DNA of 64,000 bases, from positions 248,001-312,000 of the forward strand of contig JAPYKE020000516.1 in the NCBI GenBank assembly GCA_028554795.2, written 5' to 3'. Below are positions 35,101 to 59,801 of the stretch, piece after piece. Each line of letters begins with the position of its first letter. The first letter of the stretch is position 1. The stretch comes from Sinohyriopsis cumingii (lineage: Eukaryota > Mollusca > Bivalvia > Unionida > Unionidae). A model generated the notes under the pieces. That model was given only the letters and a program-made list of their open reading frames with translations. It ran no database searches and was not told where the DNA came from. Both the position numbers and the translations under genes were made by a program.

Positions 35101-35365
35101 CATACCAGTATACAGGAAAGTCAAGTGACAATGTACTAAATTAGAATATATTACTATAAGCAATCTTATTCATGAGGGAAATAACAATTTTGCATATTGC
35201 AAGTGAATACAGCCAAATGTGGTCACACAGATCAACTATTGGTACCAATAAATCCTATATCATCAACTAAATGTGAAAATCTGATCCCCAAAACTTGTAA
35301 ACAAGGATGGAAAATTGCATATGTGGGACATATACAATGTACTTGTTAAGATCAAATGTGCAAAC
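32151..35365. repeat. A unit copy 11 (recombinant II/copy-10 type)
   Basis: 3,215 bp. It is family II up to ctctaattaaat (T near 32867), then copy-10-like from cctactg (near 33130) onward (gttgttg, gcatgcaaac, caataac, gagatcat, gggtactg, aacttatac). The exchange point therefore lies between about 32868 and 33130. Private: taaaatgataa near 34951 and ctattggtacc near 35239. Confidence 0.97.
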
Positions 35366-38300
35366 ATAATTCAAATGATCTGTTTGAACATTTATAGTGT
35401 ATTTTTAAGAGTGTTGGTTACCAATTATTAAGCTCATTGATTCAGTGGAATCAGATATCAGCTGATGCTTCAATACCGCACTCTCTCAAAGTACCAAATT
35501 GAAATATGTTACCATACATAGGCATATTCATGATGAAAATAACATTTTGGGATATTTTCAGTGCACACAGCCAGAAATGTGCCTTACAGATTCACTATAG
35601 GTATAATTGTCAGCCTATATGATGTACTGAATGTGAACTTTTGATCCCAAACATTCTAAAATGTATTGATATTTGTTCATGTGGGATATGTAACCATGTT
35701 AAGATCACTTATACAAAGTTAAGTACAAATAATCTGTTTGAATATTTCTTATGTAATCTTTAAAGTGTCAGTTAACAAATATTATTAGTAATTAATAATG
35801 CATGATAAAGCAAGATGGATCATTAGAATTCCCATAACATCATATTGGCCACAATGACACACTACGCCAATCAATATCTTAACCAAACTGAACAATAAAA
35901 TAGAATTCATTCTGTGTTCAACTTAACATCATTTTGCTCTTTTCTTACATCCAAGGGTAAATATACCTGGGGAAAGCATATTGTATCCCTTGGACCTGTA
36001 TTTCATTCACAGACAGTGTAAAATGATTAAGTAGAGAACTTGAGTAGGTTCTATTATAAAGTTTTCATCACAGTCCTCTAATTAAATACCTTATAACTAT
36101 GTTTATAAACAATTACTAAAGGCTATACAAGCAGATATGTGTTACTCAGGAAGTGACCTCATCATAAACACATAAATTAACTGCTTGGAGCCGTAATAAA
36201 TAGTCTGAATGGCCAATACAAAATATAATTTTGTCTTCATGTATTTAAAATGAAGGTCTCATTTTGACTTACAAAAATATTTTCTCTGACAAAATGTGAC
36301 AAATATCCAACATTGGAGCTTGTATATGGTGTAGGAATATATACATACTGATAACATTTAATATCATTCCAAAAAATATTATATATGTGCATTTTGGGAG
36401 GAAACTTTATTAAAATTTTTAAATAAAAATTAATTTTTTACTTTTAATTTCATTCTTATATTTTCACAGTCAATATACCTAACATATTCAAATTTCATGT
36501 GTCTATCATTACTAATAAAGATTTTATACCAATTTAACTTTACTCCAATACTGCACTGACAGGATATAGAACATAATTAATTTTACTATATGTTCTCTAC
36601 ATTTGTTTCTCAGTACTGACCTTTCCACTGTGTGACAATCAATGCAAATCATATGTTAATCTAAAATACCTTCAAAGATGACTTCACGGTGAAGTTGTTG
36701 TCAAAGGTTGACCTGCTCTTTTTTGAGATACTGGACTGTCAACATAGCAGCATGTAAACAGAACACAGATTTCACTTCCGAATCATCACCAAGGCCTTAT
36801 TACTCACTGAGCGCTGTCGCCAAAATACACACAGACAACAACACCCTGAGCTCATATTATCAAGAATAAATGGTTACCTTTAAATCCCTACCAAAATGCA
36901 TAAATAAAACTCTTCTATCTCCACCAAAATAAGAGAGGAACAAATATTCTAAAAATAGACTAGAAATACATTCGTGGGTGCTGAACTGGAAGTATTAATT
37001 GTGATGTAATTCCTGACAGGCTCCATGTTTTAAGCCAATTTTAGTCAAACTTTTATATTTGCATGCTATACCTATTTCAACTTTATACATGAAGTCTTTT
37101 TGAAATTCCTTGCAAACAAAACATGTGACACCTGTCAGAAAGTATGTAGTGCTGGTGTTCCACAGGGTGCAAGGTCTAGTCCAAGTGCTCTTGAGAAGCC
37201 AAAACTAAATTTGCTATATCTTCCTTAATTATAGAAATTTTTCAATGCAGTAAAAACCAAATTGTAATACAAGACAAGCCCTGTCTGAAAATATGTTTGA
37301 AATTTATCAATATTGATAAATTAAATTTTAATCGCAATTTAAATAAACATTTAAATTTTAAAAAGTAAATCGTTATTGAAAACATATACAAGTTTTAAAA
37401 CACAGATTGACAAATTTTAGACAGAAAAGTTGACTAATGAATGGTATTTAAAACAAATGGTAGTCTGGGTTTGTACAACTGATAACATTTTTCCCAGGGA
37501 TAGTGGAGCAACATAGCTCATAGTGATTTTGGCAGTAAACCGCTATATGCCTGTCCAGATACATATTGGTGTACACACTAAAGAAACAATGCCAGGTGCT
37601 ATGTTCCACATTTATTGTGTCAGGTACTTAGGCAGTTGTTTCCATAACTAATAGCACATTCAGATTTAAAGTTCTGATGGGATCACTACCATGTTTTATA
37701 GCAAAAATGCATTCCATTTCAATGTCGATAACTACAAAAGGTGACAATGGGATAGGAAAATAGTTTCTAGGGAGGCTCTACCTTACTAAAAAATGGTGCT
37801 GATCTCTCTCGTGAAGACCTAAGCCAAGTCTCTGAGGTGCTATATATCAGTGTGGTGATATAAACTAGTCTTGGCCACTTATGGCAGTACACTGCACATG
37901 CCCTTATGAAACCTTGCTATCACCGCCGGACTATTGGAGAGCTTAAAGCTGTTCCAACTCTAACACACTGTTCCAGATACCAGACTAAACCGGAAAAGAT
38001 ACAATATGTTTCACTTAATTCTAGAAAACAGTAAGATCTAGGTAAATGAAGTTAAAATGTGTTAGATATGGTGATTTCAAGATAACATTAAGGTTGCAAG
38101 CATGGGGGAAAATATTAAACTTGATAGAGTGACACTCAGAAATGTGAAGCAATGGCCATGCATTAAAGTGATAAATTCATCCTAAAAATATATCAGGTTT
38201 CTAGAAGCATATTTAACCATTTACAGCTTAAATACCTAATCAGGTAGACTATGTATCATAAAGTTTAAGGCAATGTTGAGGCAGTGAGGTTTGATCATTG

Positions 38301-38579
38301 GTGCAAACATTAGTACATACCAGTATACAGGAAAGTCAAGTGACAATGTACTAAATTAGAATATATTACTATAAGCAATCTTATTCATGAGGGAAATAAC
38401 AATTTTGCATATTGCAAGTGAATACAGCCAAATGTGGTCACACAGATCAACTATAGGTACCAATAAATCCTATATCATCAACTAAATGTGAAAATCTGAT
38501 CCCCAAAACTTGTAAACATGATGGAAAATTGCATATGTGGGACATATACAATGTACTTGTTAAGATCAAATGTGCAAAC
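35366..38579. repeat. A unit copy 12
   Basis: 3,214 bp, family II apart from gttgttg near 36694. Private: ttgatagag near 38125, aatacctaat near 38234, and aacatgatgg near 38516 where the others have aacaaggatgg, which accounts for the missing base. Confidence 0.97.
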
Positions 38580-41500
38580 ATAATTCAAATGATCTGTTTG
38601 AACATTTATAGTGTATTTTTAAGAGTGTTGGTTACCAATTATTAAGCTCATTGATTCAGTGGAATCAGATATCAGCTGATGCTTCAATACCGCACTCTCT
38701 CAAAGTACCAAATTGAAATATGTTACCATACATAGGCATATTCATGATGAAAATAACATTTTGGGATATTTTCAGTGCACACAGCCAGAAATGTGCCTTA
38801 CAGATTCACTATAGGTACAATTGTCAGCCTATATGATGTACTGAATGTGAACTTTTGATCCCAAACATTCTAAAATGTATTGATATTTGTTCATGTGGGA
38901 TATGTAACCATGTTAAGATCACTAATACAAAGTTAAGTACAAATAATCTGTTTGAATATTTCTTATGTAATCTTTAAAGTGTCAGTTAACAAATATTATT
39001 AGTAATTAATAATGCATGATAAAGCAAGATGGATCATTAGAATTCCCATAACATCATATTGGCCACAATGACACACTACGCCAATCAATATCTTAACCAA
39101 ACTGAACAATAAAATAGAATTCATTCTGTGTTCAACTTAACATCATTTTGCTCTTTTCTTACATCCAAGGGTAAATATACCTGGGGAAAGCATATTTTAT
39201 CCCTTGGACCTGTATTTCATTCACAGACAGTGTAAAATGATTAAGTAGAGAACTTGAGTAGGTTCTATTATAAAGTTTTCATCACAGTCCTCTAACTAAA
39301 TACCTTATAACTATGTTTATAAACAATTACTAAAGGCTATACAAGCAGATATGTGTTACTCAGGAAGTGACCTCATCATAAACACATAAATTAACTGCTT
39401 GGAGCCGTAATAAATAGTCTGAATGGCCAATACAAAATATAATTTTGTCTTCATGTATTTAAAATGAAGGTCTCATTTTGACTTACAAAAATATTTTCTC
39501 TGACAAAATGTGACAAATATCCAACATTGGAGCTTGTATATGGTGTAGGAATATATACCTACTGATAACATTTAATATCATTCCAAAAAATATTATATAT
39601 GTGCATTTTGGGAGGAAACTTTATTAAAATTTTTAAATAAAAATTAATTTTTTACTTTTAATTTCATTCTTATATTTTCACAGTCAATATACCTAACATA
39701 TTCAAATTTCATGTGTCTATCATTACTAATAAAGATTTTATACCAATTTAACTTTACTCCAATACTGCACTGACAGGATATAGAACATAATTAATTTTAC
39801 TATATGTTCTCTACATTTGTTTCTCAGTACTGACCTTTCCACTGTGTGACAATCAATGCAAATCATATGTTAATCTAAAATACCTTCAAAGATGACTTCA
39901 CGGTGAAGTTGTTGTCAAAGGTTGACCTGCTCTTTTTTGAGATACTGGACTGTCAACATAGCAGCATGTAAACAGAACACAGATTTCACTTCCGAATCAT
40001 CACCAAGGCCTTATTACTCACTGAGCGCTGTCGCCAAAATACACACAGACAACAACACCCTGAGCTCATATTATCAAGAATAAATGGTTACCTTTAAATC
40101 CCTACCAAAATGCATAAATAAAACTCTTCTATCTCCACCAAAATAAGAGAGGAACAAATATTCTAAAAATAGACTAGAAATACATTCGTGGGTGCTGAAC
40201 TGGAAGTATTAATTGTGATGTAATTCCTGACAGGCTCCATGTTTTAAGCCAATTTTAGTCAAACTTTTATATTTGCATGCTATACCTATTTCAACTTTAT
40301 ACATGAAGTCTTTTTGAAATTCCTTGCAAACAAAACATGTGACACCTGTCAGAAAGTATGTAGTGCTGGTGTTCCACAGGGTGCAAGGTCTAGTCCAAGT
40401 GCTCTTGAGAAGCCAAAACTAAATTTGCTATATCTTCCTTAATTATAGAAATTTTTCAATGCAGTAAAAACCAAATTGTAATACAAGACAAGCCCTGTCT
40501 GAAAATATGTTTGAAATTTATCAATATTGATAAATTAAATTTTAATCGCAATTTAAATAAACATTTAAATTTTAAAAAGTAAATCGTTATTGAAAACTTA
40601 AATTTTTATACAAGTTTTAAAACACAGATTGACAAATTTTAGACAGAAAAGTTGACTAATGAATGGTATTTAAAACAAATGGTAGTCTGGGTTTGTACAA
40701 CTGATAACATTTTTCCCAGGTATAGTGGAGCAACATAGCTCATAGTGATTTTGGCAGTAAACCGCTATATGCCTGTCCAGATACATATTGGTGTACACAC
40801 TAAAGAAACAATGCCAGGTGCTATGTTCCACATTTATTGTGTCAGGTACTTAGGCAGTTGTTTCCATAACTAATAGCACATTCAGATTTAAAGTTCTGAT
40901 GGGACCACTACCATGTTTTATAGCAAAAATGCATTCCATTTCAATGTCGATAACTACAAAAGGTGACAATGGGATAGGAAAATAGTTTCTAGGGAGGCTC
41001 TACCTTACTAAAAAATGGTGCTGATCTCTCTCGTGAAGACCTAAGCCAAGTCTCTGAGGTGCTATATATCAGTGTGGTGATATAAACTAGTCTTGGCCAC
41101 TTATGGCAGTACACTGCACATGCCCATATAAAACCTTGCTATCACCGCCGGACTATTGGAGAGCTTAAATCTGTTCCAACTCTAACACACTGTTCCAGAT
41201 ACCAGGCTAAACCTGAAAAGATACAATATGTTTCACTTAATTCTAGAAAACAGTAAGATCTAGGTAAATGAAGTTAAAATGTGTTAGATATGGTGATTTC
41301 AAGATAACATTAAGGTTGCAAGCATGGGGGAAAATATTAAACTTGACAGAGTGACACTCAGAAATGTGAAGCAATGGCCATGCATTAAAGTGATAAATTC
41401 ATCCAAAAATATATCAGGTTTCTAGAAGCATATTTAACCATTTACAGCTTAAATAACTAATCAGGTAGACTATGTATCATAAAGTTTAAGGCAATGTTGA

Positions 41501-41801
41501 GGCAGTGAGGTTTGATCATTGGTGCAAACATTAGTACATACCAGTATACAGGAAAGTCAAGTGACAATGTACTAAATTAGAATATATTACTATAAGCAAT
41601 CTTATTCATGAGGGAAATAACAATTTTGCATATTGCAAGTGAATACAGCCAAATGTGGTCACACAGATCAACTATAGGTACCAATAAATCCTATATCATC
41701 AACTAAATGTGAAAATCTGATCCCCAAAACTTGTAAACAAGGATGGAAAATTGCATATGTGGGACATATACAATGTACTTGTTAAGATCAAATGTGCAAA
41801 C
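38580..41801. repeat. A unit copy 13 (edge copy with 8-bp insertion)
   Basis: 3,222 bp. Family I bases return. An 8-bp insertion (taaatttt) sits near 40599-40606, also present in copy 14 and all B units but in no copy to the left; one base is lost near 41404 (catccaaaaat). Further edge-type changes are caggtatagtg near 40719, cccatataaaacc near 41124, ttaaatctgtt near 41166 and aaacctgaaaag near 41209. Confidence 0.97.
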
Positions 41802-44380
41802 ATAATTCAAATGATCTGTTTGAACATTTATAGTGTATTTTTAAGAGTGTTGGTTACCAATTATTAAGCTCATTGATTCAGTGGAATCAGATATCAGCTG
41901 ATGCTTCAATACCGCACTCTCTCAAAGTACCAAATTGAAATATGTTACCATACATAGGCATATTCATGATGAAAATAACATTTTGGGATATTTTCAGTGC
42001 ACACAGCCAGAAATGTGCCTTACAGATTCACTATAGGTACAATTGTCAGCCTATATGATGTACTGAATGTGAACTTTTGATCCCAAACATTCTAAAATGT
42101 ATTGATATTTGTTCAGGTGGGATATGTAACCATGTTAAGATCACTTATACAAAGTTAAGTACAAATAATCTGTTTGAATATTTCTTATGTAATCTTTAAA
42201 GTGTCAGTTAACAAATATTATTAGTAATTAATAATGCATGATAAAGCAAGATGGATCATTAGAATTCCCATAACATCATATTGGCCACAATGACACACTA
42301 CGCCAATCAATATCTTAACCAAACTGAACAATAAAATAGAATTCATTCTGTGTTCAACTTAACATCATTTTGCTCTTTTCTTACATCCAAAGGTAAATAT
42401 ACCTGGGGAAAGCATATTTTATCCCTTGGACCTGTATTTCATTCACAGACAGTGTAAAATGATTAAGTAGAGAACTTGAGTAGGTTCTATTATAAAGTTT
42501 TCATCACAGTCCTCTAACTAAATACCTTATAACTATGTTTATAAACAATTACTAAAGGCTATACAAGCAGATATGTGTTACTCAGGAAGTGACCTCATCA
42601 TAAACACATAAATTAACTGCTTGGAGCCGTAATAAATAGTCTGAATGGCCAATACAAAATATAATTTTGTCTTCATGTATTTAAAATGAAGGTCTCATTT
42701 TGACTTACAAAAATATTTTCTCTGACAAAATGTGACAAATATCCAACATTGGAGCTTGTATATGGTGTAGGAATATATACATGCTGATAACATTTAATAT
42801 CATTCCAAAAAATATTATATATGTGCATTTTGGGAGGAAACTTTATTAAAATTTTTAAATAAAAATTAATTTTTTACTTTTAATTTCATTCTTATATTTT
42901 CAAAGTCAATATACCTAACATATTCAAATTTCATGTGTCTATCATTACTAATAAAGATTTTATACCAATTTAACTTTACTCCAATACTGCACTGACAGGA
43001 TATAGAACACAATTAATTTTACTATATGTTCTCTACATTTGTTTCTCAGTACTGACCTTTCCACTGTGTGACAATCAATGCAAATCATATGTTAATCTAA
43101 AATACCTTCAAAGATGACTTCATGGTGAAGTTCTTGTCAAAGGTTGACCTGCTCTTTTTTGAGATACTGGACTGTCAACATAGCAGCATGTAAACAGAAC
43201 ACAGATTTCACTTCCGAATCATCACCAAGGCCTTATTACTCACTGAGCGCTGTCGCCAAAATACACACAGACAACAACACCCTGAGCTCATATCATCAAG
43301 AATAAATGGTTACCTTTAAATCCCTACCAAAAATGCATAAATAAAACTCTTCTATCTCCACCAAAATAAGAGAGGAACAAATATTCTAAAAATAGACTAG
43401 AAATACATTCGTGGGTACTGAACTGGAAGTATTAATTGTGATGTAATTCCTGACAGGCTCCATGTTTTAAGCCAATTTTAGTCAAACTTTTATATTTGCA
43501 TGCTATACCTATTTCAACTTTATACATGAAGTCTTTTTGAAATTCCTTACAAACAAAACATGTGACACCTGTCAGAAAGTATGTAGTGCTGGTGTTCCAC
43601 AGGGTGCAAGGTCTAGTCCAAGTGCTCTTGAGAAGCCAAAACTAAATTTGCTATATCTTCCTTAATTATAGAAATTTTTCAATGCAGTAAAAACCAAATT
43701 ATAATACAAGACAAACCCTGTCTGAAAATATGTTTGAAATTTATCAATATTGATAAATTAAATTTTAATCGCAATTTAAATAAACATTTAAATTTTAAAA
43801 AGTAAATCGTTATTGAAAACTTAAATTTTTATACAAGTTTTAAAACACAGATTGACAAATTTTAGACAGAAAAGTTGACTAATGAATGGTATTTAAAACA
43901 AATGGTAGTCTGGGTTTGTACAACTGATAACATTTTTCCCAGGTATAGTGGAGCAACATAGCTCATAGTGATTTTGGCAGTAAACCGCTATATGCCCGTC
44001 CAGATACATATTGGTGTACACACTAAAGAAACAATGCCAGGTGCTATGTTCCACATTTATTGTGTCAGGTACTTAGGCAGTTGTTTCCATAACTAATAGC
44101 ACATTCAGATTTAAAGTTCTGATGGGACCACTACCATGTTTTATAGCAAAAATGCATTCCATTTCAATGTCGATAACTACAAAAGGTGACAATGGGATAG
44201 GAAAAGAGTTTCTAGGGAGGCTCTATCTTACTGAAAAATGGTGCTGATCTCTCTCGGGAAGACCTAAGCCATGTCTCTGAGGTGCTATATATCAGTGTGG
44301 TGATATGAACTAGTCTTGGTCACTTATGGCAGTACACTGCACAACATGCCCTTATGAAACCTTGCTATCACCACCAGACT
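41802..44380. repeat. A unit copy 14, shortened at the A-to-B switch
   Basis: Only the first 2,579 bp of the unit are present. After ccaccagact the sequence leaves A and enters the B-only segment. The part from about 43002 is the shared core, and its right end is B-type: gaaaagagtt near 44201, ctatcttactg near 44222, gatatgaac near 44302, cttggtcac near 44315 and acaacatgcc at 44341. Its left part has caaagtc, gaacacaatt and accaaaaatgc as in copy 2. The transition is thus a recombination within homologous core, not a clean insertion. Confidence 0.95.
43002..44380. repeat. Shared A/B core at the array switch
   Basis: This 1,379-bp piece belongs both to A copy 14 and to what would be the end of an incomplete B unit. 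It includes the 8-bp insertion near 43820 and the 22-bp palindrome. Private changes such as aaattataatac, acaaaccctg and tatgcccgtcc (43690-44000) set it apart from both arrays. Confidence 0.9.
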
Positions 44381-45227
44381 GGCTGGAGGGAATCTACTGA
44401 ATTCTTATAGATAGTATAATCTACTGCATATTTTTATTTGTATTCATTCTTTATAATCAGTCTTTTGTCCTTTTGTTTGTTTGTCTGTCACCCAAGTATG
44501 TCTCTGATACTGTGAACTTGCAAATTTTCATGGTGGCTTATTATTTGTAGATGTCATTGATCAGTCCCTTAATACCTACTAATTTAACATCCATGAATAC
44601 AGATTTTATAATAGATATTTCTATTCTAATACAGAAATCATGACTTTGTATCCTTACTAAACTCTTTGTTTACCTAAAGTGATCACTATGTCTTGCTATT
44701 TTTTGTTTTGTTGTCAGGCATGCTGCTTTTGATTAGAATAATATTTAAATCTTGTATTGCTTTAAATGTGTGGTCAGATTCTTTGATTCCTTTTTATTAT
44801 TCTTTTGAATAAATGTTTTGGTAAACTTATATGATTTGTCAGAAGAAAAAAAAACAACGATGCCTGTGGAAGTGACGCATATTTTCTGCATACTTTTACA
44901 CTATACCATTTCTTGTAAGAACATCTTTTTCAGTTACTGATGTCTTATTCTTATGCCTTGTTGCAAGACTAATATAAAGTTATTTTAAAAAAATATAGCA
45001 AGTCAAACATTTTTATATCGTAAGTTAGATTTGAAAAAATGGATGAAAGTCAAGGAATCATTTTCCCCAGAGCACTCATAAAATCAATGTCATTGCAGTT
45101 AACTGTATTGTCAATAGCATCATCATCATCACTGACGGCCTACCAGTAACATTCTGCACTTTCAATCCATTTGTCACAGGTTCTATCTCCCACTTCTTGT
45201 CTTTCATACGAGACTTATACCTATGGC
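44381..45227. other. B-only segment, left part: AT-rich, no gene seen
   Basis: No frame worth calling. It holds a short tttgtttgtttg run near 44474, an A-run near 44847 that varies between units, and a (cat)n run near 45118-45131. The junction with the core at 44381 shows no inverted repeat or target-site duplication. Confidence 0.7.
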
Positions 45228-45326
45228 CTGAGGGGCTTTCATGGCAGAGTGATATAAGATGCTTGTCTTGTGATACAGATCTGAGGGGCTTCCATGGCAG
45301 TGGCACAAAATGCTTGTCATGTGATT
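45228..45326. repeat. Imperfect ~53-bp tandem duplication
   Basis: Two adjacent copies begin with ctgaggggct (45228 and 45281), share catggcag and end with tgcttgtc-tgtgat; the second copy is about 46 bases. The same pair lies at 52939-53037 and 60650-60748, so it predates amplification of the B unit. Confidence 0.8.
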
Positions 45327-48183
45327 ACTTGCCTCCAATGTGTAAATGAGAATGTTGCCAGTTACTTGTGGAACGTCAGTTGTTCTACGTAAGTGGTGTT
45401 TGGTGTCTCAAAAGGACTTGGATTTTCTTCAGCAGTAAAACTGGCTGCCATATAAAGATTCTATTCATCTGAAAATGGTGTAAAGGCCACAATGATCTAC
45501 TGAAACCCCGAGATCTCATGTCTAAATGACTTCAGCTGTTGGAGATAAACGTCAAATCAACAGAGGCTCCATGTGCCCAAGTGTACTAAGGTACTTGCTT
45601 TTACATCACTTGCACATCTCACAGAGTGAGTTTGTGTGACAGATCAAGCAATTTTGGTTGGTGGTCTTTCGGGGTTCTTCCTCCACCTAATACATTGTTA
45701 AAAACTCACCAAAAAAACCCAAATCAAACCACACTAAATCAACCAACTAATCAACTGTGGCCACAGCAGCAAAGGTACTAGTCAATCATTTTTGCCACAG
45801 CTGTATGAGTTTATAACTTTTGACTCAAGTAATTTTTGTAGACCTTAGAATATCGTCAATTATGCCTTTCTGACAGTTACCTAAAAGTCATCATCAGTTG
45901 GTGCAAATAGATTTTTCATGGTGAGCATACGAGATGGAAAAGACTTGAGCAATCCTGCATCATACACTGCCAAAAAGTTTACATTTTAGCTCACTTAAAT
46001 TTTCTCTTAACAATGTTCATTGTTCCAACTAGAACTGTTATAACTTATTCAAGCTATATTCACCAATATCTGGAGATATGCATCTGAAATAAATATTTGT
46101 AACAAAGTATGAGAATGCATCAATGTTTTTCAATGATGAATTTGAATTGAGCAACAACCACAATCAACAAACCAAGAAATAAAATTATTCACATACCTCA
46201 GGCAGAAGTAGGGTATAATCATAATCTGCCAAAAGATTTTAAAATTTTTAAATTTGCCAAATATTTTTTCCAACCATACTGATTCAGTGGACATATCACC
46301 AGAACGGACAGAAACAAACCAGAAGGTTAAAATCGATTTGATACATCTTTTAAGTAGCTAAATTCGTATTGGTTTAGTTAACTGTACACCCTTTATTGTC
46401 TTCCTTTTGATGAAATTTCTTACTGAAGCTAAGAAAATAATGTTGCACACATAAAACAAGAGGCACACTTCAACTTATTCTTGTTTTTATTATACTTCTC
46501 CATTCCAGCCTGTTCTTATGGTCTTGTCCCCCCACATACTGTTTGTCTTGTTTATGATATGTATCTAAATTCCTCACTTACTTTTCCTACTACTATACAA
46601 ATGTTATGTGAACATGCATATCAGTGTGAAACACAGTGGGGAGACTAAATCCAAGATTGAAAACCTCTACATTTCTGGATGTATTCTGCTTGGATTCCAT
46701 ATTTCTGCACAAAACGCAAGAGTTCAGGACTCTCTGTACTAATTCAATTCTCACTGTAAACCTGTGCAAACCCAATGATATTAAAATTCAGTAACTTACA
46801 ATTTTGAGTGCTCATGATCAAATCTGTATCAGTATATACACATCTATGATGACAGCTTTTGTTAAAAGAAGACCATAACAGCTGCACCATTTTCTGGATC
46901 TATACAAATTTGAAATGTGTGCTTTCAATACTGCACCAAAGAGTCAGCTGCTGATTTCAGCAATGAGTCGTCCAAACTCGGGTCTGTAAAGGGACGGAAA
47001 TTATGTTAATAAAACAAAATCCCTCACTTTTTTCAGTTACAAGTAGGACAAGCTCTCAAAAGATTGTTTTTACTAAAATCTTACTTTCATTATCAACCAA
47101 TCAGGGACAGTCAAACCCATATATACTCTGTTTAAATAATCTTCACTGATTTATAGTATGGTTCTTGTTTCACATCTGTAATAATCTGAGTCCTTTAACA
47201 ACTCTCAATGGTTGTAAGCCTTTTTCGACCATGCTGAATAGACACACTGTAAGATAATGTTCAAGTAACAGAAATACCATGGGATAACCAGAGAACAATA
47301 AAACTGAATAGGCAAGTTATCTCCCCTGCAGGGATGCTGCCAGGATTTCAGGATGTACTCTAAGTTTTGTGTGTGTGTGATCTCCAATGAGAAAGTGGTG
47401 GTGGTGGGAATAGTCTAAATATTTGTCACTCTTTCTCACTGTTTCACTCTGTTACGGCTCTACTGAAATCAAAATTCTTGAAGAGATGTCATCTCTAGTT
47501 GTATGGCAATTATTACTGTGATGTCATTGGGCATGGTCACGTGGTTGTTGTGGGGTCTTGGTTGGGATGGCATAAAGACCATAGACTTACTCCATATTTG
47601 ACAGCTAATTATGATGTTGTCAAAAGAATTAATAAATTTCTAACAATTCAGTTGGACTCGGATACTTGATTCATAGTCAATGAACAGTTCTAAAATTGAT
47701 GTCTTTATTTTGGAGCTATGTTCCTCCATCACATTCAAGATTTGGACATACCAAAGGTGAAATTGGTATAGTTGCATCCTAAACTACTATTGTGGCTACT
47801 TCAAATGTTATTTAATGTGAGACTTTAATGCAAGAACTCGTAGCTTCAGTGATTTTTGGGTTAAAACAAATTAATTTCTTCTCAAACAACTCAATTTGGT
47901 GCAGATTACATTGTTTTTTAATGATACAGTGAGAATTTTTGATGTGTAAATATTGTGCAAGAAATGAACAACATCAGATCAGAAAATTACTACCACTGGG
48001 AAAATACTGATTGGAATATACAGAAATAATGATATAATTATTAAAGTAGAATATGTGGTGACAATACGAGCACTAGTTCTACAACTTTGTGCAAAATACA
48101 TCTTGTACAACTATTCTGTTGTTTCTAAAAATACTGTAATATGGCAATAATTTCTGTCCAATTTTACTTTAGTCCTCTGCTTA
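45327..48183. other. B-only segment, middle part: no gene recognised
   Basis: The open frames here (such as minus-strand 46593-46775 and 47205-47387) start at TTG and have no upstream ATG or family likeness, so I leave them out. An A/C-rich, G-poor stretch at 45702-45755 (aaatcaa-like words) resembles a decayed SINE tail. A (tg)6 run is at 47368-47379 and a gtggtggtgg run near 47396. The minus strand near 47310-47325 reads caggggagataactt, a word I associate with dispersed mollusc repeats; this is memory, not evidence. Confidence 0.5.
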
Positions 48184-48196
48184 TTAATAGTTTTAG
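48184..48196. repeat. SINE target-site duplication, left copy
   Basis: ttaatagttttag, identical to 48510-48522. A 13-base perfect duplication flanking a tRNA-headed element is the expected mark of LINE-driven insertion. Confidence 0.9.
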
Positions 48197-48509
48197 TGAT
48201 GTGATTTTTTATTTTTAACGTAGCTTTGACAATTTTTCAGTCATATAGCTACGATGCCTGCAATATGGCAGTTTATAGTGATGTCTAGCACTGGGGCATC
48301 ATGCCGCAGACATGTAGCATGATGTCCCACCAGTCACATTATCCTGACACCAGGCCGACCAGTCCTAACACTAACCCCTTAATGCTGAACGCCAAGCGAG
48401 GCAGCTGTTAGTACCATTCTTTAAGTATCTGGTATGACTCGGCCGGGGATCGAACCCACAACCTCCCGCATCCGAGGCGGACGCTCTAACCACTAGGCCA
48501 CCGGAGCAG
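48197..48509 (-). mobile_element. tRNA-derived SINE, 313 bp, with 13-bp target-site duplication
   Basis: On the minus strand the element begins ctgctccggtggcctagtgg and has a tRNA-like head with an A box (tggcctagtgg, complement of 48490-48500) and a B box (ggttcgatcc, complement of about 48447-48456). The anticodon loop ctcggat gives CGG, so the ancestor may be tRNA-Pro. The acceptor stem and one T-stem pair do not match, so it is not a working tRNA gene. After the head come a GC-richer body of about 140 bases and a 3' part ending in gctacgttaaaaataaaaaa and tcacatca. This body and tail resemble mollusc SINEs I know, but I cannot name the family. SINEs have no protein and depend on a LINE. 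This is an insertion that was later copied with the B unit. Confidence 0.9.
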
Positions 48510-48522
48510 TTAATAGTTTTAG
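48510..48522. repeat. SINE target-site duplication, right copy
   Basis: Identical to 48184-48196 and next to the tRNA-like head of the minus-strand element. Removing one copy and the SINE restores the presumed empty site. Confidence 0.9.
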
Positions 48523-49823
48523 ATTTTACAACACTAAGCACATTTTACATTTTGACAATAACACATCATTACAAATATTTAGATTGCAAGAAGATAGAAG
48601 TTATAATTTTATTAAAAGCACTGGTACCAGTAAGACTAAAGGAGATAGTGGAAAAAAAAGAATCAGGATGAACAGATTAGTAGTGTAGTAAAGAATCCAT
48701 ATAACAGAATGACATCAAGTATTTTTTCATCAATTTCATCATCAGTTAACGATACTGCTTAAAAATGTATTGTACTAGATAATAGACTTTTTTAGTTATC
48801 CTTTTTGCAATACAAATACCAAATGATGGCTTGGAACTAAGTGCCAAAAGGTCTGCAGAAAATACCACCATGATCAAAATATACATAGGAAGAACCAAAC
48901 ACAAACGGGACAAATTTTATCCATCTTGTTTTGAGTTTACACAGATCAGTCAGTCTCTTATGTTTAATGTAATTTAATTTTTGCATACAGAGAGCATGTA
49001 CATCATTTGGTCATACATCTGCATGATATAAAAGTTTGTCTCTTTATTCTTTTGTTGCCACAGTGGTTCTGCACAACTAGAAACCTACATACACTTAATT
49101 ATGTTGTATGGGGATTCTCTGATGTTCCTTATGAGTATTAATCTGTTAATTGTTTCTGAATTTAATATGATCCTCCTCCTCTGTGTACGAATATTATTCT
49201 GTGCTGTCCTTTCATTGCCTGCTGTCTGAAACGCATATGCAAAACTAGCTTGAACAAGTTACTGTTCTTTATGGTTGTGCAATTTTCAACATCTCACATG
49301 TATGGCCCCACGGGTATTCTCTCTTGGATATCTCTGTTCCAAAAAGAACAGTTTTGAACCAGAGGTCTCCTTAGGATTTTAAAACTAAGAGTCCATGGCT
49401 CCCATTTTGAGAAAAGTATGAGTCCCACCAGGAAAAGTTGCAGTCCCCTCTCAGAAAACTATGCAAATTATAAGAACTATTGGTTGCCATACAGTTTAAT
49501 TTCTACATTCTTTATAACACTGACATAGCTCTTGCTTGTTCATCAGAGTGAGTCTGAATTGTTTTGATCCAAGGAAGGTCTTATTCAAAGCACTAAGCTA
49601 AGTATCATACACTTTCTTACACTTGGCTACTGTCCCTTCCAAACTATCAGTTCTAGCAACTTTAGCATTCTCCTGAATCTCATTACAATCTTCGTCAGTT
49701 TGCCACTGAACCCCAATACTCATTCAAGTCTAAGTCTCAACATGTCATGATTCCGAGGTCACGTGCACTGCTTAGTCCGTTACACTCAGAAATGAACACA
49801 ATAATGAAAGCTAAAGTTGTTTA
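48523..49823. other. B-only segment, right-middle part: no gene recognised
   Basis: AT-rich DNA with stops in all frames on both strands and only short runs (an A8 near 48651). A patch at 49355-49470 is less AT-rich and looks like old unique or repeat DNA, but I cannot place it. Confidence 0.5.
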
Positions 49824-50112
49824 TTTGATGTACTGTTATAAATGACCACATGTACATCTCTGGGCATTTCTGCCTCTGAATTCAAGCACTGTAAATATCA
49901 GTAGATTTTCCCACCCAGTTGCCAGTCAAAGCCTTTGATCTTGCTGCTTAGCTACTGCAGCATGTTCTTTTGATGTACTCTTATAATGGTGACTACTGGC
50001 GGGAGGGGCTTTCAACCACTAACTTCTGTCATTGTAAATATCAGCACAGCTAACTGATCAACACATTTTCTCACTATGCAGGTGACTGAAGCAGGACTGG
50101 CAAGTCTTTGAA
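49824..50112. repeat. Imperfect ~145-bp tandem duplication
   Basis: Two adjacent blocks start tttgatgtactgttataa (49824) and tttgatgtactcttataa (49969). They share a ttcaa-cact motif, gtaaatatcag (49891 and 50034), and a gattttcccac / cattttctcac word followed by related 3' sequence. The offset stays at 143-145. Divergence is substantial, so it is much older than the B array. The same pair is at about 57535-57823 in unit B2. Confidence 0.75.
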
Positions 50113-50114
50113 TT

Positions 50115-50556
50115 TTACCGCCCACCTAAATAAAAAAAATTGGCATCCAAATACGCGTGATTATAAGCCTTTCCGAGACCTCTGTCAGTCTTCACTAACA
50201 TGAACTCTGCCAAAGATTCACTTCCTTGAATCAGTGTTTTACTGCCTCTTATGCCATATTTTTCTCTTCCACAATGCTGTATTAGGGTTTTAAGTCCAAC
50301 ATTCCCATAATCTGCTTGTTTAGACATGGGTATCTTGAATAAATATAACCAGCATATTGTCCATCCAACACGTACATCGGATTCGCACTCAACATCAATT
50401 TTGGGCTCAAAATCACACACTGGTATTTCCAGTAACATTTTCCCAATGTCCAACAGACCGATATACATGAAATTCATTGTCATCATAGCTATCACCAGCC
50501 AGTATTTGCCGACTGAAAACGTCGTCTGAAGACAAACCGTCTTGTGATTCAACCAT
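50115..50556 (-). pseudogene. Possible 5' end of a host gene carried in the B unit
   Basis: I do not recognise a protein family. Two overlapping minus-strand frames are open. One starts at an ATG at 50556 in a strong context (accaaaATGg) and runs 47 codons to a TGA at 50413-50415; its product starts MVESQDGLSSDDVFSRQ, is acidic and looks like a natural N-terminus. The other is open from 50552 to 50115 (145 codons) without an early ATG. It contains a hydrophobic stretch at residues 19-36, a second short one at about 64-73, and the words GLKTLIQ and GSKTLIQ, whose five shared codons KTLIQ differ at third positions in four of five. That pattern hints at past coding constraint. A captured first exon with intron behind it, or a decayed gene start, would both fit. 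A chance frame remains possible. Confidence 0.4.
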
Positions 50557-50670
50557 TTTGGTTTCCTGTGTGGCCCTTATTGGAAACACGCATTTGTAAA
50601 ACTTCCACGATATAAGGCTAAAACTCCATAAAATGCTTGTTCCTGGGCCATTGAACCAATCAAATTTAGT
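50557..50670 (-). promoter_or_regulatory. Promoter-like stretch before the possible gene start
   Basis: On the minus strand a CCAAT box in the NF-Y orientation (tgattggtt, complement of 50654-50662) lies about 100 bases before the ATG, with a TATA-like ttatat near 50608-50613 and a second CCAAT word near 50584-50588. The arrangement fits a small animal promoter plus 5' leader, but each word is short and could be chance. The shared A/B core begins about 50 bases further upstream. Confidence 0.3.
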
Positions 50671-50710
50671 TTAACAGCCATTCATGTCGAACTGAAGTAT
50701 CCAGATGGAC

Positions 50711-52090
50711 ATAGAACACAATTAAGTTTACTATATGTTCTTTACATTTGTTTCTCAGTACTGACCTTTCCACTGTGAGACAATCAATGCAAATCATATG
50801 TTAATCTAAAATACCTTCAAAGATGACTTCACGGTGTAGTTCTTGTCAAAGGTTGACCTGCTCTTTTTTGAGATACTGGACTGTCAACATAGCAGTAATT
50901 AAAAAGAACACAGATTTCACTTTCGAATCATCACCAAGGCCTTATTACTCACTGAGCGCTGTTGCCAAAATACACACAGACAACAACACCCTGAGCTCAT
51001 ATTATCAAGAATAAATGGTTACCTTTTAAATCCCTACCAAAAATGCATAAATAAAACTCTTCTATCTCCACCAAAATAAGAGAGGAACAAATATTCTAAA
51101 AATAGACTAGAAATACATTCGTGGGTACTGAACTGGAAGTATTAATTGTGATGTAATTCCTGACAGGCTCCATGTTTTAAGCCAATTTTAGTCAAACTTT
51201 TATATTTGCATGCTATACCTATTTCAACTTTATACATGAAGTCTTTTTGAAATTCCTTGCAAACAAAACATGTGACACCTGTCAGAAAGTATGTAGTGCT
51301 GGTGTTCCACAGGGTGCAAGGTCTAGTCCAAGTGCTCTTGAGAAGCCAAAACTAAATTTGCTATATCTTCCTTAATTATAGAAATTTTTCAATGCAGTAA
51401 AAACCAAATTGTAATACAAGACAAGCCCTGTCTGAAAATATGTTTGAAATTTATCAATATTGATAAATTAAATTTTAATCGCAATTTAAATAAACATTTA
51501 AATTTTAAAAAGTAAATTGTTATTGAAAACTTAAATTTTTATACAAGTTTTAAAACACAGATTGACAAATTTTAGACAGAAAAGTAGACTAATGAATGGT
51601 ATTTAAAACAAATGGTAGTCTGGGTTTGTACAACTGATAACATTTTTCCCAAGGATAGTGAAGCAACATAGCTCATAGTGATTTTGGCAGTAAACCGCTA
51701 TATGCCTGTCCAGATACATATTGGTGTACACACTAAAGAAACAATGTCAGGTGCTATGTTCCACATTTATTGTGTCAGGTACTTAGGCAGTTGTTTCCAT
51801 AACTAATAGCACATTCAGATTTAAAGTTCTGATGGGACCACTACCATGTTTTATAGCAAAAATGCATTCCATTTCAATGTCGATAACTACAAAAGGTGAC
51901 AATGGGATAGGAAAAGAGTTTCTAGGGAGGCTCTATCTTACTGAAAAATGGTGCTGATCTCTCTCGTGAAGACCTAAGCCATGTCTCTGGGGTGCTATAT
52001 ATCAGTGTGGTGATATGAACTAGTCTTGGTCACTTATGGCAGTACACTGCACAACATGCCCTTATGAAACCTTGCTATCACCAACAGACT
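50711..52090. repeat. Shared A/B core in B unit 1
   Basis: 1,380 bp homologous to A-unit positions of about 1202-2567, including the 22-bp palindrome and the 8-bp insertion (near 51532). Fixed B-type differences from interior A copies are aattaagttt, ttctttac, tagcagtaatt, ctttcgaatc, tgttgcc, gtaaattgtt, ccaaggatagtgaagc and the added aac in acaacatgcc. B-only sequence joins on both sides without a visible duplication. Confidence 0.92.
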
Positions 52091-55000
52091 GGCTGGAGGG
52101 AATCTACTGAATTCTTATAGATAGTATAATCTACTGCATATTTTTATTTGTATTCATTCTTTATTGTCAGTATTTTGTCCTTTTGTTTGTTTGTCTGTCA
52201 CCCAAGTATGTCTCTGATACTGTGAAATTGCAAATTTTCATGGTGGCTTATTATTTGTAGATGTCATTGATCAGTCCCTTAATACCTACTAATTTAACAT
52301 CCATGAATACAGATTTTATAATAGATATTTCTATTCTAATACAGAAATCATGACTTTGTATCCTTACTAAACTCTTTGTTTACCTAAAGTGATCACTATG
52401 TCTTGCTATTTTTTGTTTTGTTGTCAGGCATGCTGCTTTTGATTAGAATAATAGTTAAATCTTGTATTGCTTTAAATGTGTGGTCAGATTCTTTGATTCC
52501 TTTTTATTATTCTTTTGAATAAATGTTTTGGTAAACTTATATGATTTGTCAGAAGAAAAAAAAAACGATGATTGTGGAAGTGATGTCGCATATTTTCTGC
52601 ATACTTTTACACTATACCATTTCTTGTAAGAACATCTTTTTCAGTTACTGATGTCTTATTCTTATGCCTTGTTGCAAGACTAATATAAAGTTATTTCAAA
52701 AAAATATAGCAAGTCAAACATTTTTATATCGTAAGTTAGATTTGAAAAAATGGATGAAAGTCAAGGAATCATTTTTCCCAGAGCAGTCATAAAATCAATG
52801 TCATTGCAGTTAACTGTATTGTCAATAGCATCATCATCATCACTGACGGCCTACCAGTAACATTCTGCACTTTCAATCCATTTGTCACAGGTTCTATCTC
52901 CCACTTCTTGTCTTTCATACGAGACTTATACCTATGGCCTGAGGGGCTTTCATGGCAGAGTGATATAAGATGCTTGTCTTGTGATACAGATCTGAGGGGC
53001 TTCCATGGCAGTGGTACAAAATGCTTGTCATGTGATTACTTGCCTCCAATGTGTAAATGAGAATGTTGCCAGTTACTTGTGGAAGGTCAGTTGTTCTACG
53101 TAAGTGGTGTTTGGTGTCTCAAAAGGACTTGGATTTTCTTCAGCAGTAAAACTGGCTGCCATATAAAGATTCTATTCATCTGAAAATGGTGTAAAGGCCA
53201 CAATGATCTACTGAAACCCCGAGATCTCATGTCTAAATGACTTCAGCTGTTGGAGATAAACGTCAAATCAACAGAGGCTCCATGTGCCCAAGTGTACTAA
53301 GGTACTTGCTTTTACATCACTTGCACATCTCACAGAGTGAGTTTGTGTGACAGATCAAGCAATTTTGGTTGGTGGTCTTTCGGGGTTCTTCCTCCACCTA
53401 ATACATTGTTAAAAACTCACCAAAAAAACCCAAATCAAACCACACTAAATCAACCAACTAATCAACTGTGGCCACAGCAGCAAAGGTACTAGTCAATCAT
53501 TTTTGCCACAGCTGTATGAGTTTATAACTTTTGACTCAAGTAATTTTTGTAGACCTTAGAATATCGTCAATTATGCCTTTCTGACAGTTACCTAAAAGTC
53601 ATCATCAGTTGGTGCAAATAGATTTTTCATGGTGAGCATACGAGATGGAAAAGACTTGAGCAATCCTGCATCATACACTGCCAAAAAGTTTACATTTTAG
53701 CTCACTTAAATTTTCTCTTAACAATGTTCATTGTTCCAACTAGAACTGTTATAACTTATTCAAGCTATATTCACCAATATCTGGAGATATGCATCTGAAA
53801 TAAATATTTGTAACAAAGTATGAGAATGCATCAATGTTTTTCAATGATGCATTTGAATTGAGCAACAACCACAATCAACAAACCAAGAAATAAAATTATT
53901 CACATCCCTCAGGCAGAAGTAGGGTATAATCATAATCTGCCAAAAGATTTTAAAATTTTTAAATTTGCCAAATATTTTTTCCAACCATACTGATTCAGTG
54001 GACATATCACCAGAACGGACAGAAACAAACCAGAAGGTTAAAATCGATTTGATACATCTTTTAAGTAGCTAAATTCGTATTGGTTTAGTTAACTGTACAC
54101 CCTTTATTGTCTTCCTTTTGATGAAATTTCTTACTGAAGCTAAGAAAATAATGTTGCACACATAAAACAAGAGGCACACTTCAACTTATTCTTGTTTTTA
54201 TTATACTTCTCCATTCCAGCCTGTTCTTATGGTCTTGTCCCCCCACGTAATGTTTGTCTTGTTTATGATATGTATCTAAATTCCTCACTTACTTTTCCTA
54301 CTACTATACAAATGTTCTGTGAACATGCATATCAGTGTGAAACACAGTGGGGAGACTAAATCCAAGATTGAAAACCTCTACATTTCTGGATGTATTCTGC
54401 TTGGATTCCATATTTCTGCACAAAACGCAAGAGTTCAGGACTCTCTGTACTAATTCAATTCTCACTGTAAACCTGTGCAAACCCAATGATATTAAAATTC
54501 AGTAACTTACAATTTTGAGTGCTCATGATCAAATCTGTATCAGTATATACACATCTATGATGACAGCTTTTGTGAAAAGAAAACCATAACAGCTGCACCA
54601 TTTTCTGGATCTATACAAATTTGAAATGTGTGCTTTCAATACTGCACCAAAGAGTCAGCTGCTGATTTCAGCAATGAGTCGTCCAAACTCGGGTCTGTAA
54701 AGGGACGGAAATTATGTTAATAAAACAAAATCCCTCACTTTTTTCAGTTACAAGTAGGACAAGCTCTCAAAAGATTGTTTTTACTAAAATCTTACTTTCA
54801 TTATCAACCAATCAGGGACAGTCAAACCCATATATACTCTGTTTAAATAATCTTCACTGATTTATAGTATGGTTCTTGTTTCACATCTGTAATAATCTGA
54901 GTCCTTTAACAACTCTCAATGGTTGTAAGCCTTTTTCGACCATGCTGAATAGACACACTGTAAGATAATGTTCAAGTAACAGAAATACCATGGGATAACC

Positions 55001-55907
55001 AGAGAACAATAAAACTGAATAGGCAAGTTATCTCCCCTGCAGGGATGCTGCCAGGATTTCAGGATGTACTCTAAGTTTTGTGTGTGTGTGATCTCCAATG
55101 AGAAAGTGGTGGTGGTGGGAATAGTCTAAATATTTGTCACTCTTTCTCACTGTTTCACTCTGTTACGGCTCTACTGAAATCAAAATTCTTGAAGAGATGT
55201 CATCTCTAGTTGTATGGCAATTATTACTGTGATGTCATTGGGCATGGTCACGTGGTTGTTGTGGGGTCTTGGTTGGGATGGCATAAAGACCATAGACTTA
55301 CTCCATATTTGACAGCTAATTATGATGTTGTCAAAAGAATTAATAAATTTCTAACAATTCAGTTGGACTCGGATACTTGATTCATAGTCAATGAACAGTT
55401 CTAAAATTGATGTCTTTATTTTGGAGCTATGTTCCTCCATCACATTCAAGATTTGGACATACCAAAGGTGAAATTGGTATAGTTGCATCCTAAACTACTA
55501 TTGTGGCTACTTCAAATGTTATTTAATGTGAGACTTTAATGCAAGAACTCGTAGCTTCAGTGATTTTTGGGTTAAAAAAAATTAATTTCTTCTCAAACAA
55601 CTCAATTTGGTGCAGATTACATTGTTTTTTAATGATACAGTGAGAATTTTTGATGTGTAAATATTGTGCAAGAAATGAACAACATCAGATCAGAAAATGA
55701 CTACCACTGGGAAAATACTGATTGGAATATACAGAAATAATGATATAATTATTAAAGTAGAATATGTGGTGACAATACGAGCACTAGTTCTACAACTTTG
55801 TGCAAAATACATCTTGTACAACTATTCTGTTGTTTCTAAAAATACTGTAATATGGCAATAATTTCTGTCCAATTTTACTTTAGTCCTCTGCTTATTAATA
55901 GTTTTAG

Positions 55908-56220
55908 AGATGTGATTTTTTATTTTTAACGTAGCTTTAACAATTTTTCAGTCATATAGCTACGATGCCTGCAATATGGCAGTTTATAGTGATGTCTAGC
56001 ACTGGGGCATCATGCCGCAGACATGTAGCATGATGTCCCACCAGTCACATTATCCTGACACCAGGCCGACCAGTCCTAACACTAACCCCTTAATGCTGAA
56101 CGCCAAGCGAGGCAGCTGTTAGTACCATTTTTTAAGTATCTGGTATGACTCGGCCGGGGATCGAACCCACAACCTCCCGCATCCGAGGCGGACGCTCTAA
56201 CCACTAGGCCACCGGAGCAG
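55908..56220 (-). mobile_element. SINE copy in B unit 2
   Basis: Same 313-bp element at the same unit position with the same target-site duplication (55895-55907 and 56221-56233). It shares taccattttttaag with B3 where B1 has taccattctttaag. It is a copy by unit amplification, not a new insertion. Confidence 0.9.
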
Positions 56221-57825
56221 TTAATAGTTTTAGATTTTACAACACTAAGCACATTTTACATTTTGACAATAACACATCATTACAAATATTTAGATTGCAA
56301 GAAGATAGAAGTTATAATTTTATTAAAAGCACTGGTACCAGTAAGACTAAAGGAGATAGTGGAAAAAAAAGAATCAGGATGAACAGATTAGTAGTGTAGT
56401 AAAGAATCCATATAACAGAATGACATCAAGTATTTTTTCATCAATTTCATCATCAGTTAACGATACTGCTTAAAAATGTATTGTACTAGATAATAGACTT
56501 TTTTAGTTATCCTTTTTGCAATACAAATACCAAATGATGGCTTGGAACTAAGTGCCAAAAGGTCTGCAGAAAATACCACCATGATCAAAATATACATAGG
56601 AAGAACCAAACACAAACGGGACAAATTTTATCCATCTTGTTTTGAGTTTACACAGATCAGTCAGTCTCTTATGTTTAATGTAATTTAATTTTTGCATACA
56701 GAGAGCATGTACATCATTTGGTCATACATCTGCATGATATAAAAGTTTGTCTCTTTATTCTTTTGTTGCCACAGTGGTTCTGCACAACTAGAAACCTACA
56801 TACACTTAATTATGTTGTATGGGGATTCTCTGATGTTCCTTATGAGTATTAATCTGTTAATTGTTTCTGAATTTAATATGATCCTCCTCCTCTGTGTACG
56901 AATATTATTCTGTGCTGTCCTTTCATTGCCTGCTGTCTGAAACGCATATGCAAAACTAGCTTGAACAAGTTACTGTTCTTTATGGTTGTGCAATTTTCAA
57001 CATCTCACATGTATGGCCCCACGGGTATTCTCTCTTGGATATCTCTGTTCCAAAAAGAACAGTTTTGAACCAGAGGTCTCCTTAGGATTTTAAAACTAAG
57101 AGTCCATGGCTCCCATTTTGAGAAAAGTATGAGTCCCACCAGGAAAAGTTGCAGTCCCCTCTCAGAAAACTATGCAAATTATAAGAACTATTGGTTGCCA
57201 TACAGTTTAATTTCTACATTCTTTATAACACTGACATAGCTCTTGCTTGTTCATCAGAGTGAGTCTGAATTGTTTTGATCCAAGGAAGGTCTTATTCAAA
57301 GCACTAAGCTAAGTATCATACACTTTCTTACACTTGGCTACTGTCCCTTCCAAACTATCAGTTCTAGCAACTTTAGCATTCTCCTGAATCTCATTACAAT
57401 CTTCGTCAGTTTGCCACTGAACCCCAATACTCATTCAAGTCTAAGTCTCAACATGTCATGATTCCGAGGTCACGTGCACTGCTTAGTCCGTTACACTCAG
57501 AAATGAACACAATAATGAAAGCTAAAGTTGTTTATTTGATGTACTGTTATAAATGACCACATGTACATCTCTGGGCATTTCTGCCTCTGAATTCAAGCAC
57601 TGTAAATATCAGTAGATTTTCCCACCCAGTTGCCAGTCAAAGCCTTTGATCTTGCTGCTTAGCTACTGCAGCATGTTCTTTTGATGTACTCTTATAATGG
57701 TGACGACTGGCGGGAGGGGCTTTCAACCACTAACTTCTGTCATTGTAAATATCAGCACAGCTAACTGATCAACACATTTTCTCACTATGCAGGTGACTGA
57801 AGCAGGACTGGCAAGTCTTTGAATT

Positions 57826-58267
57826 TTACCGCCCACCTAAATAAAAAAAATTGGCATCCAAATACGCGTGATTATAAGCCTTTCCGAGACCTCTGTCAGT
57901 CTTCACTAACATGAACTCTGCCAAAGATTCACTTCCTTGAATCAGTGTTTTACTGCCTCTTATGCCATATTTTTCTCTTCCACAATGCTGTATTAGGGAT
58001 TTAAGTCCAACATTCCCATAATCTGCTTGTTTAGACATGGGTATCTTGAATAAATATAACCAGCATATTGTCCATCCAACACGTACATCGGATTCGCACT
58101 CAACATCAATTTTGGGCTCAAAATCACACACTGGTATTTCCAGTAACATTTTCCCAATGTCCAACAGACCGATATACATGAAATTCATTGTCATCATAGC
58201 TATCACCAGCCAGTATTTGCCGACTGAAAACGTCGTCTGAAGACAAACCGTCTTGTGATTCAACCAT
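57826..58267 (-). pseudogene. Second copy of the possible host-gene 5' end
   Basis: Equivalent to 50115-50556. The ATG lies at 58267 and the 47-codon frame ends at 58124. The CCAAT word is at 58365-58373. The only change I see in the long frame turns GLKTLIQ into GLKSLIQ (near 57999), a non-synonymous change. With one substitution between two copies, selection cannot be judged. Confidence 0.4.
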
Positions 58268-58421
58268 TTTGGTTTCCTGTGTGGCCCTTATTGGAAACAC
58301 GCATTTGTAAAACTTCCACGATATAAGGCTAAAACTCCATAAAATGCTTGTTCCTGGGCCATTGAACCAATCAAATTTAGTTTAACAGCCATTCATGTCG
58401 AACTGAAGTATCCAGATGGAC

Positions 58422-59801
58422 ATAGAACACAATTAAGTTTACTATATGTTCTTTACATTTGTTTCTCAGTACTGACCTTTCCACTGTGTGACAATCAATG
58501 CAAATCATATGTTAATCTAAAATACCTTCAAAGATGACTTCACGGTGAAGTTCTTGTCAAAGGTTGACCTGCTCTTTTTTGAGATACTGGACTGTCAACA
58601 TAGCAGTAATTAAACAGAACACAGATTTCACTTTCGAATCATCACCAAGGCCTTATTACTCACTGAGCGCTGTTGCCAAAATACACACAGACAACAACAC
58701 CCTGAGCTCATATTATCAAGAATAAATGGTTACCTTTTAAATCCCTACCAAAAATGCATAAATAAAACTCTTCTATCTCCACCAAAATAAGAGAGGAACA
58801 AATATTCTAAAAATAGACTAGAAATACATTCGTGGGTACTGAACTGGAAGTATTAATTGTGATGTAATTCCTGACAGGCTCCATGTTTTAAGCCAATTTT
58901 AGTCAAACTTTTATATTTGCATGCTATACCTATTTCAACTTTATACATGAAGTCTTTTTGAAATTCCTTGCAACCAAAAAATGTGACACCTGTCAGAAAG
59001 TATGTAGTGCAGGTGTTCCACAGGGTGCAAGGTCTAGTCCAAGTGCTCTTGAGAAGCCAAAACTAAATTTGCTATATCTTCCTTAATTATAGAAATTTTT
59101 CAATGCAGTAAAAACCAAATTGTAATACAAGACAAGCCCTGTCTGAAAATATGTTTGAAATTTATCAATATTGATAAATTAAATTTTAATCGCAATTTAA
59201 ATAAACATTTAAATTTTAAAAAGTAAATTGTTATTGAAAACTTAAATTTTTATACAAGTTTTAAAACACAGATTGACAAATTTTAGACAGAAAAGTTGAC
59301 TAATGAATGGTATTTAAAACAAATGGTAGTCTGGGTTTGTACAACTGATAACATTTTTCCCAAGGATAGTGAAGCAACATAGCTCATAGTGATTTTGGCA
59401 GTAAACCGCTATATGCCTGTCCAGATACATATTGGTGTACACACTAAAGAAACAATGCCAGGTGCTATGTTCCACATTTATTGTGTCAGGTACTTAGGCA
59501 GTTGTTTCCATAACTAATAGCACATTCAGATTTAAAGTTCTGATGGGACCACTACCATGTTTTATAGCAAAAATGCATTCCATTTCAATGTCGATAACTA
59601 CAAAAGGTGACAATGGGATAGGAAAAGAGTTTCTAGGGAGGCTCTATCTTACTGAAAAATGGTGCTGATCTCTCTCGTGAAGACCTAAGCCATGTCTCTG
59701 AGGTGCTATATATCAGTGTGGTGATATGAACTAGTCTTGGTCACTTATGGCAGTACACTGCACAACATGCCCTTATGAAACCTTGCTATCACCAACAGAC
59801 T
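58422..59801. repeat. Shared A/B core in B unit 2
   Basis: 1,380 bp. It keeps gtgaag at the 15-nt dyad, unlike B1, and has private changes aaccaaaaaatg near 58973 and tgcaggtg near 59008. Confidence 0.92.

Follow-up and report, generated by a model that had tools for sequence, protein, structure and literature searches.

Two related kilobase-scale satellite arrays that meet within a shared core in a 64-kb stretch of Sinohyriopsis cumingii DNA

In Drosophila, Stellate and Su(Ste) are tandem clusters of one genome that are related but differently organised, and their units have a module in common. The human macrosatellites D4Z4 and DXZ4 are head-to-tail arrays of kilobase-sized units with high identity, and D4Z4 carries DUX4. 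A review uses the term macrosatellite, in the excerpt consulted, for monomers longer than 500 bp, for which a composite structure is possible (PMC12692304). Excerpts of that review and of a further one describe the ends of arrays as less homogenised than the rest, and diverged end variants as amplifiable into new satellites (PMC12692304; PMC5615363). An excerpt of another study takes up circles, unequal exchange and conversion in connection with Stellate and Su(Ste) (PMC12400953).

Here, we describe a 64,000-nucleotide stretch of the bivalve Sinohyriopsis cumingii (contig JAPYKE020000516.1 of assembly GCA_028554795.2, positions 248,001 to 312,000), which we call the window and in which positions are counted from its first letter. 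Its likeness to the known systems concerns their organisation. With D4Z4 and DXZ4 it has in common the head-to-tail, highly identical kilobase-sized units, whereas no clear gene comparable to DUX4 in D4Z4 was found in its arrays. As with Stellate and Su(Ste), its tandem clusters belong to one genome and are related yet differently built, but Stellate and Su(Ste) are gene arrays. The array-end model, as excerpted (PMC12692304; PMC5615363), would be matched in so far as diverged end variants are amplified to new families; here, however, the new unit also carries 6.33 kb unrelated to the old one, and both arrays have stayed attached to each other. Provided that the assembly is correct, a single stretch captures the place where two related satellite arrays join, together with signs of exchange, namely diverged core ends, a homogenised core interior and one hybrid copy.

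Layout of the two arrays and their shared core

Self-BLAST and an anchor search showed that the window, with a G+C content of about 34% by letter counts, consists of two tandem arrays lying end to end, in which units with a period of 3,215 bp (A) run into units with a period of 7,711 bp (B) (Table 1). By anchor search, 14 core starts were located from 1201 to 43002 (1201, 4415, 7631, 10846 ... 39780, 43002), spaced by 3214-3216 bp except for a final step of 3222, followed by two further starts at 50711 and 58422 after steps of 7709 and 7711. Each A unit is made up of the core and about 1.85 kb of A-specific DNA, each B unit of the core and 6.33 kb of B-specific DNA (6,330 and 6,339 bp with the limits used, under which copy B2 begins a few bases sooner than B1). 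The window holds 13 full A units and two full B units, the first of these with a hybrid core, and both arrays continue past it. Pairwise comparison of the 13 A-specific parts gave 0-15 substitutions in about 1,852 bp, those of units 5, 7 and 8 being identical, and B1 differs from B2 at 26 of 6,328 sites. With head-to-tail units longer than 500 bp and high identity within each array, A and B are kilobase-scale satellite arrays that are related to each other.

When one A unit was searched against one B unit by sensitive blastn, the 1.38-kb core was the single match, on the same strand. This and the self-BLAST bear out an earlier note on this DNA, which had described two macrosatellites of 3,215 and 7,711 bp with one common core in the same orientation. 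The 13 A cores and the two B cores are 96.8-97.7% identical over 1,376 aligned bases in self-BLAST and are thus clearly more alike than random AT-rich DNA, a possibility that the earlier note had raised against itself. Homology between A and B ends abruptly on both sides of the core, where extension into the flanks was no better than for random stretches (P 0.56 on the right and 0.32 on the left, 1,000 draws each).

Table 1. Features of the window, with positions counted from its first letter
Feature	Position	Strand	Basis
A array: 1.2-kb partial unit followed by 13 complete units (about 3,215 bp each)	1..42997	+	self-BLAST, anchor search, unit comparison
Core 14, hybrid (A-type left, B-type right)	42998..44380	+	self-BLAST, anchor search, 24 diagnostic columns
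Perfect palindrome, 22 bp, AT-rich, inside core 14	43738..43759	.	palindrome search and shuffles
Interval holding the A-to-B switch, core 14	43952..44205	+	last A-type column 43951, first B-type column 44206
B-specific segment, copy B1, 6.33 kb	44381..50710	+	self-BLAST, A-versus-B unit blastn, copy comparison
Target-site duplication, left copy, TTAATAGTTTTAG	48184..48196	.	direct-repeat check
SINE-like insertion, 313 bp, tRNA-Pro-like head at 48434-48508	48197..48509	-	tRNA search, 13-bp flanking repeats
Target-site duplication, right copy, TTAATAGTTTTAG	48510..48522	.	direct-repeat check
Core 15, B-type (extent of match to A cores)	50707..52082	+	self-BLAST, diagnostic columns
B-specific segment, copy B2	52083..58417	+	self-BLAST; 26 substitutions in 6,328 sites versus B1
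Core 16, B-type	58418..59793	+	self-BLAST, diagnostic columns
B-specific segment, copy B3, ends at window edge	59794..64000	+	self-BLAST, copy comparison

Sequence content of the core and of the B-specific segment

No gene was found in the core. One 64-aa frame (40248-40439) contains GVPQG, a reverse-transcriptase motif, and gave a weak match to Pfam RVT_1 (E 0.05, 13.7 bits against a cut-off of 29.6), as one of ten frames searched; it had no PDB match up to E 10. This frame may be a decayed retrotransposon scrap or a product of chance. The AT-rich palindrome was the sole perfect palindrome of at least 16 bp in the one A unit and the one B unit examined. Its 20-bp centre is present in 16 of 16 cores, and its length of 22 bp was reached in none of 500 shuffles of the core and none of 100 shuffles of the B unit. 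The suggestion of the earlier note that the core perhaps promotes amplification found no support; this palindrome is the only oddity found in the core, and nothing points to a role for it. We hold it highly improbable that the core is a portable segment which stimulates recombination or replication, perhaps via its AT-rich interior with the palindrome, makes attached DNA multiply in tandem and lets arrays with different units go on exchanging sequence.

The B-specific segment contains a SINE-like insertion in which both a tRNA-like head and a target-site duplication, as in tRNA-derived SINEs, were found. The same 13-bp pair, TTAATAGTTTTAG, recurs at 55895/56221 and 63607/63933, so that insertion and duplication are present in three of three B copies. 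We take the head to be of molluscan appearance; three stretches of its letters had no match in the literature text searched. The element probably goes back to a single insertion and was later copied along with the B unit. Because SINE and target duplication sit in all three copies, the B-specific segment was probably ordinary chromosomal DNA before amplification. An Rfam search of 40000-60000 yielded only two tRNA heads above the curated score, with psbT-asRNA (twice) and mir-21 (twice) far below it.

The minus strand of B at 50115-50670 has open frames of 153 and 85 aa that overlap each other, neither with a match above the curated cut-off. The former, the longest B frame, is open in B1 and B2 and of borderline length, being equalled or exceeded in 7 of 200 shuffles of the whole segment and in 7 of 500 when only its own 711 bp were shuffled; searches of Pfam, NCBIfam and PDB gave no match to it up to E 1. 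A gene array was rejected, as no clear gene was found in B or the core, Rfam returned only the tRNA heads and the longest B frame was borderline against shuffles. Weak sub-cut-off matches to CCDC168_N, zinc_ribbon_6, SiaC, Toxin_7 and Fam20C were taken as chance. Pfam was searched with 14 frames (4 + 10), a subset of those in both units. A short-period satellite was not found at periods up to 500. Foreign origins were likewise rejected: the B unit had no match in plasmids, 39780-44380 and the B1 segment had none in phages, and exact patterns, a weak test, gave no matches in viral contigs (three patterns) or GTDB contigs (two).

The hybrid core and the uneven divergence of A and B cores

Diagnostic columns were defined by a letter or gap state common to both B cores (15 and 16) and absent from all 13 A cores (1-13), with core 14 left out of the definition. 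This gave 24 columns, or 18 events once neighbours were merged, between alignment columns 77 and 1456. Up to 43951, core 14 is A-type at 12 of 12 diagnostic columns; at 44206-44376 it is B-type at 11 of 12, the exception being 44374, which is A-like; the switch from A-type left to B-type right within the core of copy 14, as claimed before, was thereby confirmed. The B-type part comprises only the last 175 bp or so, or up to about 430 bp if the switch interval is counted. To the left of the switch, core 14 shows 8-12 differences from A cores in 943-951 sites versus 20-21 in 952 from B cores (21 in 952 from core 15), and to the right 9-11 differences from A cores in 170 sites versus 2-3 in 173 from B cores (3 in 173 from core 15). 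As B1 and B2 differ at just 26 of 6,328 sites, core 14 cannot simply be a copy of core 15, and its origin requires recombination. A plain end duplication without later exchange is thus ruled out, the left part of core 14 differing from core 15 far more than B1 does from B2. An 8-bp stretch (alignment columns 898-905) occurs in cores 13 and 14 as well as in B cores 15 and 16 and is absent from A cores 1-12; in this state the A units nearest the joint agree with B.

Divergence between A and B cores is unevenly distributed. In seven bins along the core, the mean A-B mismatch was 3.46, 3.92, 0.81, 0.70, 1.87, 0.76 and 6.09%, with A-A mismatch of 0.16-0.81% and B-B mismatch of 0.40-1.27% in the same bins. 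The divergence thus amounts to about 6% in the right-hand 173 columns and 3.5-3.9% in the left-hand 315, and in columns of about 392-885 to 0.7-0.8%, with 0.2-0.5% for A-A and 0.4-0.8% for B-B. In tests that were picked after seeing the data and that treat sites as independent, the lack of any fixed A-B difference across 493 interior columns (392-884) had a P of 0.0063 as a gap that long among 18 random events, the greater density of fixed events at the right end (8 in 173 columns versus 10 in 1,206) a P of 0.0008, and the presence in the interior of 6 of 24 A-polymorphic columns versus 0 of 18 fixed events a Fisher P of 0.029. Since those six A-polymorphic columns fall there, the interior stretch is not frozen by constraint. 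Within it, core 15 has 0 mismatches in 492 sites to cores 3, 10 and 11, apart from one single-base gap. The low-divergence interior is interrupted by three fixed differences at 43808-43951.

This uneven divergence, with diverged ends and a homogenised interior, is what is new here. It fits an old split of A and B followed by later exchange through the core interior, which, being flanked by homology on both sides, would have been homogenised, the core ends staying different since they abut unrelated DNA. Uneven mutation could be a partial cause. The exchange through the core that had been suggested is supported by both the hybrid core 14 and the homogenised interior. The split between the A and B types also seems to predate the homogenisation of the units now seen in either array, because the most diverged core end reaches about 6%, as against 26 in 6,328 for B1 versus B2 and 0-15 in about 1,852 for the 13 A-specific parts.

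Possible histories of the joint

At the joint, the DNA that follows the core changes from A-specific to an unrelated 6.33 kb, and the combination of core and 6.33 kb is then repeated as B. We tentatively favour, at somewhat less than even confidence, a history in which a terminal A core and neighbouring DNA were tandemly duplicated into B, with A and B recombining through the core ever since. Array A would have ended on the B side within a unit, just past the core. The terminal, diverged core and 6.33 kb of neighbouring single-copy DNA, with the SINE already inside, would then have been duplicated in tandem, so that the core's left border would mark the duplication breakpoint and its right border the place where array A ended, and the new 7.7-kb unit would have expanded into array B. 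Later unequal exchange or gene conversion through the core would have homogenised the interior and left the ends beside non-homologous DNA different, and hybrid core 14 would represent one such exchange with A units, by conversion or crossing-over. The sharp borders and shared orientation would need no special property of the core, as it is merely the stretch between the breakpoint and the end of array A. The A-type left part of core 14 is unexplained by duplication alone, so that conversion from, or a crossover with, A units is needed. Gene conversion tracts measure a few hundred bases or less according to an excerpt of PMC12400953, and because of this the A-type part of about 1 kb points to a crossover rather than a single conversion. 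We infer that the 6.33 kb originated beside array A; the window itself holds no single-copy locus for it. Of the earlier proposals, that of a chimeric unit, an A fragment joined to 6.33 kb of other DNA, which was then amplified remains the natural one, and that of a core which promotes the amplification has found no support. The process looks like one of a known kind, in which one satellite array gives rise to another and still swaps sequence with it, in an ordinary but well-preserved example.

The same left joint would result from integration of a circle or from a crossover between two existing arrays. For the circle, core and 6.33 kb would have been joined elsewhere, perhaps multiplied by rolling-circle copying, and a single crossover would have inserted them into an A core. 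The left junction expected of such an event is matched in form by hybrid core 14, and circles of tandem arrays have been reported in Drosophila (Cohen et al. 2003, cited in an excerpt of PMC12400953). However, nothing specific to circles was seen, and we consider this origin rather unlikely; it predicts an A/B hybrid core to the left of the B block and a B/A hybrid core to the right, and the latter would lie beyond the window, which ends inside B. As end duplication and circle integration each predict a different right-hand end of B, the locus would, given a correct assembly, separate them and be a clean test case for new satellites arising by duplication of an array end and its neighbour as against circle integration. 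Unequal crossing-over within the core could also have joined two pre-existing arrays from different places or chromosome copies. Long coexistence of the two types is suggested by the 6.1% at the right end of the core versus the 26 in 6,328 (B1-B2) and 0-15 in about 1,852 (A) within arrays, but this account leaves unexplained how B acquired the core, and we regard it as unlikely.

The sharp borders on both sides, together with the RVT_1 match of the GVPQG frame (E 0.05, below cut-off), could be taken to mean that the core is a mobile or dispersed element which inserted independently into the two DNA segments ahead of their amplification. Yet the core borders, read by eye, showed neither terminal inverted repeats nor target duplications, and the match is well under the cut-off, stems from one of ten frames and has no PDB counterpart up to E 10; we regard a mobile core as improbable. 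Repeats of 1.38 kb are typical sites for assembly misjoins, and A and B might lie apart in the genome and have been glued at the shared core. Seven private variants in core 14 and the most private substitutions in B1 suit a real edge better than a mixed consensus, and we judge a misjoin very improbable.

Among the observations against the history of end duplication and later exchange, unit 13 is not specially diverged, column 44374 is A-like and the fixed differences at 43808-43951 interrupt the interior. In an unrooted comparison, cores 14 and 15 have seven and six private variants and the other 14 cores 0-3, and over the 4.2 kb common to all three copies B1, B2 and B3 have 18, 6 and 12 private substitutions. 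Five of the seven variants of core 14 lie to the left of the switch interval, one inside it and one in the B part. The excess in cores 14, 15 and B1 is as expected near array ends. Unit 13, which also adjoins the joint, has one private variant in its core and, in alignment columns read by eye, four private substitutions in its A-specific part versus 6, 4, 4 and 4 in parts 1, 4, 9 and 12; part 1, with its six, sits inside the array as far as visible. The A-specific part also contains an old direct duplication of about 300 bp (41565-41866 and 41923-42220 on the plus strand, 71% identical, spacing about 355 bp), given which the A units themselves may have descended from a shorter repeat.
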